In this document: piece after piece, positions 2,808 to 10,604 of the stretch
How positions within the stretch are numbered: the first letter of the stretch is position 1
Layout: each line of letters begins with the position of its first letter
DNA from: Ruegeria discodermiae
GTDB lineage: Bacteria > Pseudomonadota > Alphaproteobacteria > Rhodobacterales > Rhodobacteraceae
Direction of reading: 5' to 3'
Assembly (NCBI RefSeq): GCF_030758345.1
Contig: NZ_JAVAMO010000004.1
Coordinates: 248,001 to 312,000 of the forward strand
Length of the DNA stretch: 64,000 nt
Program-made: the position numbers and the translations under genes
The notes under the pieces: model-generated
Seen by the model: only the letters and a program-made list of their open reading frames with translations
Databases searched by the model: none
What the model was told of the DNA's origin: nothing

Positions 2808-5018
<2,211 letters not shown>

Positions 5019-6641: not shown

Positions 6642-7382
6642 TCAATCACGCACAAGGTGGCCGCCATCTACATCCAGCACGGTGCCGGTCAGGAACTCGT
6701 TTGTCATTGCCATGATGACAGCTTGCGCAACGTCCTGCGCCTCCCCAACCCGTCCGACAGGCAGTCTGCCGCCAACTTGCGCGTACATGTCTTCGCGCGC
6801 CGCATCCGGCATTGCCGCATAGGCTTCGGTTGCAACCATGCCAGGGCTGATGCAGTTCACCCGCGCGCGACCGGACAGTTCCAGCGCCAGCCCCTTCGCC
6901 AGTGCCTCAACCGCCGCGTTTACTGCGCCAAGACCTGTGGCGCCGGCAGATGGGCGGCGGCTGAGCACGCCGGAAAAGAGCGTGATAGACCCGCCGTTGC
7001 TCAACACAGGCAACACTTCGCGCGCAGCTACATAGGGGCCGAGGAACTTAGCCTCGACCATGTCGCGCAGATCGTCTGTGGGCAGATCCATGAACGCCCC
7101 ATGCGCAGCGCTTGAGGCAGTGATCACCAGATGATCCACCGGTCCCAGCCCTCCGACCCAGGATTTAACGTCGGCTTCCTGGGTCGTATCCACAGGCGCG
7201 GCCTTCACCCCGCCCCCAATTTCGTCCGCTGCGGCCTGTAACTTGGCCGGATTGCGGCTGGCGATCGTGACCTTTGCGCCAAGGGCGGCGGCCATCTTTG
7301 CGGTGGCCTTCCCCATGCCACTGCTGCCGCCGACGATGACGAGATGTTTGCCCTTCAGGGCAGTCTCAAAAACCGTGCTCAT
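6642..7382 (-). CDS. SDR family protein lacking the usual catalytic Tyr and Lys
   Basis: A 246-residue short-chain dehydrogenase-fold protein with the nucleotide-binding motif GGSSGMG near residues 19-25 and the NxxSPG-like segment RVNCISPGMV. Where most SDRs have Tyr-x3-Lys after the active-site serine, this protein reads GLGAVNAAVEAL, so Leu and Asn replace them. The ATG at 7382 is preceded by AAGGAA and gives the normal SDR N-terminus; a longer frame from 7418 would overlap the end of the upstream reductase. It is probably transcribed with the quinone reductase upstream. It may bind NADP without classical SDR catalysis. Confidence 0.85.
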   Translation of the reverse strand: MSTVFETALKGKHLVIVGGSSGMGKATAKMAAALGAKVTIASRNPAKLQAAADEIGGGVKAAPVDTTQEADVKSWVGGLGPVDHLVITASSAAHGAFMDLPTDDLRDMVEAKFLGPYVAAREVLPVLSNGGSITLFSGVLSRRPSAGATGLGAVNAAVEALAKGLALELSGRARVNCISPGMVATEAYAAMPDAAREDMYAQVGGRLPVGRVGEAQDVAQAVIMAMTNEFLTGTVLDVDGGHLVRD

Positions 7383-7470
7383 TGCTATGGTTCCTTTTTT
7401 GTCGGGTCGGTCAATCAATGCTCAGTACAAGCTTGCCGGTGGTTTCTCCTGCTTCCGGACGGCGATGCGC

Positions 7471-8400
7471 CTAGGCGGCTTCGGCAATGGGTAGGGTGGC
7501 AATCTGCGGGGTCAGAACGCCGGTCTCTAGCAGGTCGAACACCGTGGCCATATCCGCGCTGAACCCATCGGGGCGGTTGAGGAAATAGGTATAGATGTCG
7601 CTGACCCGCACTGAGACCGATTTCTGAAAATGCTTCGCTAGATCTTCAGCAAAGCCACCTGCGGGCGGACCAGCTATGAACCCGAACAGGACTGCCGTAC
7701 CAAGCGGAGCCAGCACGTCGAGGTCGGATTTCAACGACTCGCCCGAGATCGGGTTCAGCGTCAGATCCACGCCGCGCTCGTCGGTAATTTCCATCACCCG
7801 TGCGGTGACATCCTCGGTGCGATAGTCGATCACGTGATCGGCGCCTTGATCTTTGGCGTACCCGACCTTGTTGGTGCTGGTCGAAGCGATCACAGTCATG
7901 CCCAGATGTTTGGCGATCTGCAGGGCCATAGTACCGACGCCCCCCGCAGCCGCATGAACCAGCACGGATTTACCCGCCCCGCCCAGATTGACCAGCATAT
8001 GATAGGCCGTCATTGCGTTGACCGGGATGGCGGCTGCGATGTCAAAGCTGATCGGGTCGGCCAGCCGGGTAACATAGGGCGCTCCGATCACAGAATGGGT
8101 GCCATAACCGCCCGCACCGATTGGCCCTATCCACGCCACGCGGTCACCCAAGGAAAAACCGTCTACACCCTCGCCCAGCGCTTCGACGATTCCGGCCCCC
8201 TCAACACCCGGCACATGAGGCAGATCGGGCATCATCCCTTCGGGCATTTCGCCCCTGCGGATGACCGTGTCGATAAAGTTGACCGCCCCGGCATGGTTGC
8301 GGATCAGGATTTGCCCGCCACCGGGCTGCGGAATTGTCCGGTCGGTTTTGCTCAGAACGTCCGGCCCGCCGGTCTGAGTGATTTCAATTGCGTAGGGCAT
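7471..8400 (-). CDS. NADPH:quinone oxidoreductase, truncated by in-frame amber codon
   Basis: A zinc-independent MDR/quinone-oxidoreductase-type enzyme of 309 residues, with the N-terminal ITQTGGPDVL motif and the NADPH-binding AAAGGVGTMALQIAKHLG near residues 150-170. The reading frame stops at TAG (7471-7473) after LPIAEAA, but the same frame continues for 19 sense codons that read as a perfect family C-terminus (AHRRPEAGETTGKLVLSID) and ends at TGA 7411. A single change from GAG would explain the stop. The product lacks the last beta strand and may be inactive. It is divergent from a LysR gene that probably controls it. Confidence 0.85.
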   Translation of the reverse strand: MPYAIEITQTGGPDVLSKTDRTIPQPGGGQILIRNHAGAVNFIDTVIRRGEMPEGMMPDLPHVPGVEGAGIVEALGEGVDGFSLGDRVAWIGPIGAGGYGTHSVIGAPYVTRLADPISFDIAAAIPVNAMTAYHMLVNLGGAGKSVLVHAAAGGVGTMALQIAKHLGMTVIASTSTNKVGYAKDQGADHVIDYRTEDVTARVMEITDERGVDLTLNPISGESLKSDLDVLAPLGTAVLFGFIAGPPAGGFAEDLAKHFQKSVSVRVSDIYTYFLNRPDGFSADMATVFDLLETGVLTPQIATLPIAEAA

Positions 8401-8463: not shown

Positions 8464-8480
8464 TGAGATATATTATCTCA
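8464..8480. promoter_or_regulatory. Palindromic operator between quinone reductase and LysR gene
   Basis: TGAGATA-TAT-TATCTCA is a perfect seven-base inverted repeat 12 bases before the LysR start and 64 bases from the divergent reductase start. The size and T-N11-A content suit a LysR-type binding box. Confidence 0.55.
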
Positions 8481-8491
8481 TAAATAGGATT

Positions 8492-9328
8492 ATGATCTAT
8501 AACGACCTTGCTCTGTTTACTGTCGTCGCCAACCACCTCAGCTTTTCCAAGGCTGCAGACCGCTTGGGCATACCGCTCAGCCGGATCAGCCGCAGGGTAG
8601 CTGAGTTAGAGGGCCATCTGGGCACCAAGCTGTTTGAGCGCACGACCCGCCAGGTTCGCCTGACCGAAGAGGGTCGGCGCCTTCTGGATCGCTGTCAGAA
8701 CCCGATTGAAGCGCTGCAGGGAGTTGTTGGGTTTGCAGACGATACCAGACGTCAAAGCATCCGCGTTACCGCGCCACCACTGGCCGCCCGCACAACAATA
8801 GGCCCCCGACTGCTGGATTTTGCGGAACAGAATCCGGATGTGGAACTTGAGCTGACCACAACAAATGTCATGCTGGACTTCTTTCGTGATAATATTGATC
8901 TAGCCTTCCGGGTCGGCCCATTGACGGATTCCAGCCTTGTCGCAAAACGGCTCTGGTCGGTTCCCTACTGCTTTTGCGCCGGTTTGGGTTTGATCCAGGA
9001 ACGCGGGCTGAACGCTTCGGTCCCGCGCCAGGATTTTCTGGCCTTGCCCGCACTGATATCTGGTCAGCCCTGGGTACTTGAAACCGGCGAAGTGCTGCAC
9101 CCAAAGCATATCGCGCACAGCTTAACCGACCTTGATGTCATTGCGCAGGCCGCCCGCCGGGACTTGGGCGTAGCAATGCTGCCTCTGGATATGATGGGTG
9201 GCGATTTGCAACGGCTTGACGTCACGGACACCATGCCGCTGACGCGGGACATGTTCGCCGTTTATCCCAGCCGTCGCCTCTTGCCCGCACGGATCAGGAG
9301 ACTGATTGATTTCATGTCGCCCGGGTAA
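8492..9328 (+). CDS. LysR-type transcriptional regulator
   Basis: A 278-residue LysR-type regulator starting at MIYNDLALFTVVANHLSFSK, with the DNA-binding helix-turn-helix in the first 60 residues and an effector-binding domain after it. Its N-terminal sequence (RLGIPLSRISRRVAELEGHLG, LFERTTRQVRLTEEG) is of the subgroup that usually controls divergent oxidoreductases. The ATG at 8492 follows an ATAGGAT ribosome site; a longer in-frame start at 8435 would read through the palindrome and is unlikely. It is divergent from the quinone reductase, its probable target; the inducer is unknown. Confidence 0.9.
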   Translation: MIYNDLALFTVVANHLSFSKAADRLGIPLSRISRRVAELEGHLGTKLFERTTRQVRLTEEGRRLLDRCQNPIEALQGVVGFADDTRRQSIRVTAPPLAARTTIGPRLLDFAEQNPDVELELTTTNVMLDFFRDNIDLAFRVGPLTDSSLVAKRLWSVPYCFCAGLGLIQERGLNASVPRQDFLALPALISGQPWVLETGEVLHPKHIAHSLTDLDVIAQAARRDLGVAMLPLDMMGGDLQRLDVTDTMPLTRDMFAVYPSRRLLPARIRRLIDFMSPG

Positions 9329-9331
9329 GGC

Positions 9332-10024
9332 CTACCACTCAATCGCAACACCGTCGCGAAAGAACCCTCCGGTCGGGCCGCTATTCGGCAGGGTTGCAGC
9401 CCAGACGACACCTTTGGCGCCTTCGGATACGGGGCGTCCGCCGCCGCCCATATCGGTGGCGACCCATCCGGGGCACACTGCATTGACGAGGATGCTTTGG
9501 GGTTTCAGTTCCGCAGCAGTCTTGATGGTCAGCGCATTCAATGCTGCTTTGGAAATACCGTAACCGGGCGTACCCGCTGACATACCGGTCAATGCCCCTG
9601 CCCCAGAAGACACGTTGACGATCCGGGCGTTCTCACCGCGTTGGAGCAACGGATTTGCCGCAATCGTTGTTGCCCAAGGACCAAAGAAGTTGGTGTCGAA
9701 CGCGCGTCGTACGCGCTCAAGATCAGCATGATAGGCCCGCTGATCCGTATCGTAATCCGCCCCCGCGTTGTTCACCAAGACATCAAGACGCCCGAACGCA
9801 GCTTCAATTTGCGCGAAGGCCGCTGCAACAGAGGTCTGATCGGACGCATCCAGTTGCACGGCTTGCGCCCCATACCCGATCTCATCCGCAGCAGCCCGCC
9901 CTTTTGCCAGATCGCGCGCACCTACAAGAACTTTCATCCCATGGTCTCGCGCCAATTGGCGGGAAACTTCCTTGCCGATGCCGCGATTGGCTCCGGTCAC
10001 GAGCGCGATGCGTTGGCTGGTCAT
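9332..10024 (-). CDS. SDR family NAD(P)-dependent oxidoreductase
   Basis: A classical short-chain dehydrogenase of 230 residues, with cofactor motif GANRGIG near residues 11-17, NNAG near 88, the active-site serine in NVSSGAG and the catalytic YGISK motif. The C-terminal region (GVVWAATLPNSGPTGGFFRDG) resembles carbonyl-reductase-like SDRs that use NADPH to reduce aldehydes, ketones or quinones. The ATG at 10024 begins MTSQRIALVTG, the usual SDR start. It ends three bases from the convergent LysR gene and follows an exported NTF2-fold gene by ten bases, so the two are probably co-transcribed. The substrate is unknown. Confidence 0.9.
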   Translation of the reverse strand: MTSQRIALVTGANRGIGKEVSRQLARDHGMKVLVGARDLAKGRAAADEIGYGAQAVQLDASDQTSVAAAFAQIEAAFGRLDVLVNNAGADYDTDQRAYHADLERVRRAFDTNFFGPWATTIAANPLLQRGENARIVNVSSGAGALTGMSAGTPGYGISKAALNALTIKTAAELKPQSILVNAVCPGWVATDMGGGGRPVSEGAKGVVWAATLPNSGPTGGFFRDGVAIEW

Positions 10025-10034
10025 GGTTTTTCTC

Positions 10035-10544
10035 TCAATTCGCCTCGGCAGCGCGCTGGCCAGCAATCGTCACAAGACCACGGTCGCCGGTTTCCCAGAG
10101 TGCAGTCATGGTCATCGAGGTGACAACCCAGCGGTCGTCTGATTTTTCCAACGCATAGTCATAGCGGCCGCCCAGAACCCACAAGCCATCATCAAGGCGA
10201 TGGGTCGCCGTGAAATCGGCCTGCGCTGTGGCGGTGTTCCCTGAAAGTGAGGTGATCGTATGGTTGGTTACCATATGGTGCGTATTGTCGAATCCAGGCA
10301 AGAAGGCGGACCACCCCGCCACCAGATCATTGGCGGGTTGCGTTGCTGGTTCTCCACCCCAAAGGCTGGTGTAATCAATGGTCACGTCGTCAGCAAACGC
10401 ACCTCGTACACGAGCCCAGTCATGACGATCAGCGCCAGCGGCGATATCCGTGATTGTGGTCGAGATACCGGTCTGTTCCTCGGCAAATGCTGCGGTTCCA
10501 ATCATGGCAACGGCCGCAAGGGTGGATGTGAGTTTTCTCTGCAT
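10035..10544 (-). CDS. Exported nuclear transport factor 2 (SnoaL)-fold protein
   Basis: A 169-residue protein with a Sec signal peptide (MQRKLTSTLAAVAMIGTAAFA, cleavage after AFA) followed by a SnoaL/NTF2-like domain. The features are the tryptophan in DWARVRGAFADDVTIDY, HHMVTNH in the middle and the closing beta strands around RYDYALEKSDDRW. Members of this fold are enzymes or small-molecule binding proteins, usually cytoplasmic, so export is notable. The ATG at 10544 gives a complete signal peptide. It sits between a secreted alpha/beta hydrolase and an SDR in the same direction. The function is not known. Confidence 0.8.
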   Translation of the reverse strand: MQRKLTSTLAAVAMIGTAAFAEEQTGISTTITDIAAGADRHDWARVRGAFADDVTIDYTSLWGGEPATQPANDLVAGWSAFLPGFDNTHHMVTNHTITSLSGNTATAQADFTATHRLDDGLWVLGGRYDYALEKSDDRWVVTSMTMTALWETGDRGLVTIAGQRAAEAN

Positions 10545-10604
10545 GGGGAGGCTCCGATAGAGTGAGGAGGGACGCCGAATAGTACTCCGGCGTCCGGACA
10601 AGGC

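Follow-up and report, generated by a model that had tools for sequence, protein, structure and literature searches.

A quinone-oxidoreductase-like gene of Ruegeria discodermiae, probably chromosomal, carries an in-frame amber codon ahead of its conserved C-terminus, and we read this codon, at a probability of about 0.72 and on comparative sequence evidence, as a real and recent nonsense mutation. The gene lies in the window, by which we mean the whole stretch of 64,000 nucleotides that was analyzed. Under this reading, a Glu codon (GAG) would have mutated to TAG on the window lineage, RF1 would terminate translation at codon 310 to leave a 309-residue protein, and the last 20 residues, the terminal part of the chain, which in proteins of this fold comes back to the catalytic domain, would be lost. 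The truncated protein would probably be unstable or inactive, placing the gene at the start of pseudogenization, and the downstream SDR and divergent LysR genes would stay intact. Three origins were offered by the original prediction, namely recent nonsense mutation, sequencing error and, as a rare case, stop readthrough; the first is the best supported. The features concerned are as follows:

7474-8400, minus strand: body of the quinone-oxidoreductase-like (MDR superfamily) gene, codons 1-309, from Pfam domains and orthologues
7471-7473, minus strand: in-frame amber codon TAG, codon 310, at a Glu or Lys column of the distinct orthologues
7414-7470, minus strand: conserved C-terminal tail of 19 codons, now past the stop and carrying L315P, from orthologue alignment, Pfam and distant homologues
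7411-7413, minus strand: TGA, the presumed ancestral stop, from orthologue ends
6642-7382, minus strand: downstream SDR-family oxidoreductase gene, intact (NF005449, 257.3 bits against a cut-off of 257)
8492-9328, plus strand: divergent LysR-family regulator, intact, from Pfam (start codon inferred; searches used 8465-9325)
9332-10601, minus strand: second SDR gene and small protein gene beyond the LysR gene, from locus comparison

The amber codon and the tail behind it

The oxidoreductase frame opens with ATG at 8400-8398 and continues through 309 sense codons to TAG at 7473-7471, exactly where the original prediction had placed and read it. The tail codons that follow (7470-7414) encode AHRRPEAGETTGKLVLSID, and TGA at 7413-7411 closes the same frame. 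Up to the TAG, the protein scores above the Pfam cut-offs for all three domains of the zinc-binding dehydrogenase superfamily, namely ADH_N (52.3 bits, cut-off 23.5), ADH_zinc_N (81.6 bits, cut-off 31.8) and ADH_zinc_N_2 (50.3 bits, cut-off 27), and it is therefore a quinone-oxidoreductase-like member of the family bearing these domains, which we take to be the MDR superfamily. The C-terminal end of the catalytic domain is incomplete in the truncated frame, which matches PF13602 over profile positions 1-117 of 134 with 50.3 bits; only when the stop is read as X is the profile complete (1-134 of 134, 78.3 bits). For TIGR02824, the PIG3-type quinone oxidoreductase model with a cut-off of 296.8 bits, both the truncated (179.4 bits) and the read-through (200.8 bits) versions fall below the cut-off, as does the intact orthologue from Ruegeria atlantica (209.7 bits), so that "quinone reductase" is to be understood as a family-level name. 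NAD(P)H-dependent reduction of quinones is likewise a predicted activity, drawn from sequence similarity.

To compare the stop region with that of related genes, a scan of genome contigs was used, which yielded 19 loci, 17 of them intact orthologues that are 72-86% identical to the window gene in the body and come from Ruegeria, Thalassovita, Shimia, Tropicibacter, Mameliella, Phaeobacter, Pelagimonas and two MAGs (Rhodobacteraceae and Rhodospirillales). The two loci left out both have interrupted frames: that of L049 (66% match) breaks well ahead of the tail and that of L050 (48% match) at an early point. In addition, 394 genomes of the family were searched, with the first few candidates per genome scored, and matches at E <= 1e-90 were found in at least five, the own genome included; of the sequences from the other four, three (L051, L053 and L054) were identical to L037, L042 and L047 and were dropped, and one (L052) was new, giving 18 distinct orthologues. 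One further genome of the same genus had no match at 1e-60. The broken relative L049 comes from a Roseovarius MAG (JAPOTF010000189.1, match 3001-3802) whose contig has a coverage of about 11, so its break is possibly an assembly error.

At the column of the TAG, 17 of the 18 distinct orthologues have Glu (8 GAG, 9 GAA) and one has Lys; a stop occurs in none. As in a recent nonsense-type pseudogene, the stop thus stands where every distinct orthologue has a sense codon and removes a tail that is conserved. All 18 orthologues carry this tail, their C-termini reading EAHRRLEAGETTGKLVLSID or close to it, and they end at the TGA column of the window or one residue earlier; among the 17 whose terminal codons were tabulated (13 TGA, 4 TAA), L046 ends one residue early and the rest end at the TGA column. 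The same-frame C-terminus that had been noticed in these 19 codons is consequently no chance match to the family, with orthologue ends and PF13602 in agreement. C-terminal similarity in alignments, on which the claim had been made to depend, is present in 18 of 18 orthologues and also in all 29 distant homologues whose ends were examined (31-41% identical; L003-L031, a subset of a longer match list); in each of these the frame ends with the tail. A truncated family or a natural short isoform was considered and rejected, there being no early end among the 18 orthologues or the 29 distant homologues examined. A TTGKLVL block in the tail is invariant in 18 of 18 orthologues. Calling the C-terminus "perfect" went too far: residue 315 is Pro in the window, Leu in all 18 distinct orthologues, and Leu, Met or Ile in the 29 distant homologues.

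In the gene tree, the sister clade of the window gene (L032, L033 and L036) has GAG throughout, so the proposed one-base change from GAG to TAG fits as a single event on the window lineage. The R. atlantica HKCCD6218 orthologue (L032, NZ_WQCF01000009.1) is 86% identical over 309 residues and has the same neighbors (a divergent LysR gene, a downstream SDR gene and, on the far side of the LysR gene, another SDR gene and a small protein gene); unlike that of the window gene, its frame runs uninterrupted to 331 residues, and Glu and Leu occupy the columns of the stop and of P315, respectively. No intact duplicate of the stop region was found in the own genome, where the stretch occurs once. An intact backup copy was also sought among the four other matches in this genome, and these are paralogues of 35-41% identity.

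Age of the stop and effect of the truncation

Judged by its substitutions, the gene body is under normal purifying selection, with a dN/dS of about 0.09 when L032 and L033 are the reference and of 0.11-0.13 when L036 and L034 are. Of 132 body columns that are invariant in the other sequences, the window departs at two, both conservatively (I to V and L to I); for the other rows, the number of such departures ranges from 0 to 5 in a leave-one-out comparison that retained duplicates and was therefore biased toward few departures for L037, L042, L047, L053 and L054, so in this respect the window resembles the intact orthologues. An undecayed body is expected from a young event and equally from a sequence error.

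Parsimony against the sister clade and L034/L035 assigns to the window lineage, within the tail, seven synonymous changes and one missense change besides the nonsense change, which suggests that the stop is young. If a rough branch dS of 0.42 is assumed, a tail free over the whole branch should have collected about 17.6 missense changes and a tail under constant constraint 1.6; for a tail free during the last 20% of the branch, the probability of one missense change or fewer would be 0.048. On these estimates, the stop is likely to have arisen within about the last 20% of the branch. The pattern in the tail is consistent with a stop that is young relative to the divergence from the lineage of R. 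atlantica, with a base error, or with a tail still in use, of which we prefer the first. As one missense change is close to the expectation for a functional gene (1.6), L315P lends the nonsense reading modest support. Long relaxation of the tail was also considered, on two signals that are at most suggestive: a low third-position GC content (9/19 in the tail, 217/309 in the body, with 16 of 292 body windows equally low) and a higher synonymous rate in the tail than in the body (Fisher P = 0.077). Of the seven synonymous changes in the tail, five replace G or C by A or T, which is borderline.

We consider it unlikely that the TAG is a sequencing, assembly or consensus error in a genome that truly has a sense codon and makes a full-length enzyme. 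A single wrong base would be enough, the body is without decay and the draft assembly comprises 81 contigs, but two unusual changes, the stop and L315P, fall within six codons, and seven neighboring frames of the window, the oxidoreductase body included, were translated with no internal stop. Substitution errors are, moreover, rare per base in short-read assemblies.

Less probable still is a working 309-residue protein for which the TAG would be a new and tolerated end. Purifying selection on the body is what such a protein would show, the loss is limited to 20 residues, and one unusual change lies past the stop, as relaxed constraint would allow; nevertheless, most of the selection recorded in the body acted before a young stop arose, the lost tail holds the invariant TTGKLVL block, and none of the distant homologues examined ends early. 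The window product resembles bacterial quinone oxidoreductase and zeta-crystallin-like MDR proteins (1qor, 3jyl, 4rvu and the 2-haloacrylate reductase 1wly) in having ADH_N and ADH_zinc_N domains, but these match the intact orthologue over nearly its whole length, whereas the window product ends before the last 20 residues. The five solved relatives displayed residue by residue (3jyl, 4rvu, 4rvs, 1wly and 1qor) all align with the intact orthologue through the tail, and 13 of the 14 solved relatives listed reach residue 327 or beyond with that orthologue as query, the exception being 4a27, which ends at 244. In ceQORH, a plant relative, Gly3-Pro132 and Leu277-Pro329 together form the catalytic domain, according to the part of its description used here (PMC5343027). 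Since this C-terminal segment belongs to the catalytic domain, which also counts against a functional short form, its loss should remove an edge of the domain and probably destabilize or inactivate the enzyme; by analogy of fold and by conservation, the 309-residue product is probably unstable or inactive. An AlphaFold model (mean pLDDT 53.1) was too poor for use, and a low-confidence prediction places residue 315 within a putative helix, 305-316.

TAG as a stop in this genome

Amber readthrough or suppression, yielding some full-length enzyme and perhaps serving as low-level regulation, appears very improbable. The tail changes are nearly all synonymous, a pattern that a tail still translated would show but that a young stop would produce just as well, and L315P alters the very tail that readthrough would preserve. 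Release factor RF1 (prfA) was found above its cut-off. A check for an amber suppressor tRNA, which had been proposed, gave no candidate: with ARAGORN run on stretches around tRNA-family matches and on the other stretches taken, none of 41 tRNAs had a CTA, TTA or TCA anticodon, in a set that is incomplete because, for example, it contains no Ile tRNA. Relatives do not share the stop either, as it is absent from this position in all 18 distinct orthologues. No stable RNA fold was found downstream of it (z = +1.43), and such a structure was rejected.

To see how TAG is used elsewhere, open reading frames were collected from a sample of 0.5 Mb, consisting of the whole window contig and six 20-kb pieces of another contig of the genome, C1. 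TAG closes 76 of 394 long ORFs (76 of 391 when counted per stretch), or about 19%, some of these ORFs being spurious. At least 15 open codons follow the stop in 58 TAG ORFs, and in 28 of these the extension lies mostly outside other ORFs. When the stop was read through as X, 17 of the 28 had a Pfam match at 1e-8, and the oxidoreductase alone was matched across the stop; in at least four others (L059, L061, L064 and L108), the TAG comes shortly after a Pfam domain that is matched to its model's end. By codon score, extensions that equal or exceed the oxidoreductase tail follow every type of stop (9 of 53 after TAA, 9 of 58 after TAG and 15 of 159 after TGA), so this score does not discriminate. 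Reassignment of TAG was rejected on the presence of RF1, the survey of 41 anticodons and the ordinary use of TAG as a stop in the sampled 0.5 Mb.

Two other ORFs on contig C1 were observed in this survey. A helicase-like ORF (L110, 9189-12428, plus strand) is closed by TAG, and wholly past this stop the same frame encodes an S4 domain, which is probably a separate small downstream gene. The other (L106, 16915-18519, plus strand) has a match to the TIR domain PF13676 at residues 40-128.

In-frame stops in bacterial genes are described, in the part of the study by Belinky et al. (2021; PMC7918605) used here, as widespread and short-lived in evolution; they occur there in genes with dN/dS below 1, and frequent readthrough is suggested for such interrupted genes under selection, which would speak for readthrough in the window as well. 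Similar to those cases, the window stop lies inside a gene under purifying selection, and it fits the short-lived class. Unlike them, it is present in one genome, whereas the criterion given in that part of the study is sharing by two or more species, so by this criterion it is not distinguishable from error. A further possibility, that the amber codon is a stable or polymorphic low-expression switch in which basal UAG misreading gives a little full-length enzyme and selection keeps the tail, seems scarcely credible.

Genomic setting and meaning for the gene

The surroundings of the gene were compared across 19 related loci (L032-L049 and L052) with flanks of 1.5 or 3 kb. A divergent LysR gene adjoins the oxidoreductase gene in 17 of these loci and the downstream SDR gene in five (L032, L033, L036, L040 and L042). 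Beyond the LysR gene, the second SDR gene is found in seven of the 19 (in one as a partial match) and the small protein gene also in seven; their conserved placement suggests a larger co-inherited cluster. The ATG of the downstream SDR gene (7382-7380) lies 28 bases past the TGA and 88 past the TAG, and this gene is a possible operon partner of the oxidoreductase gene. A simple scan between 7300 and 8600 revealed no terminator-like site, and we expect that the downstream SDR is probably still made. Nothing favored a plasmid origin: there was no near match among plasmids, protein-level plasmid matches were all below 60% identity, and the contig has tRNA genes. The tRNA genes, together with the lack of a near plasmid match, make a chromosomal place likely.

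Annotations should describe the gene as probably truncated and not as an intact quinone reductase, and the finding has little importance beyond that. The most likely account is a gene broken recently by an ordinary mutation, not a novel reading of the genetic code. If the base is real, the gene would illustrate a very young nonsense mutation cleanly, in that the body has been normally selected and the conserved tail is still present past the stop.
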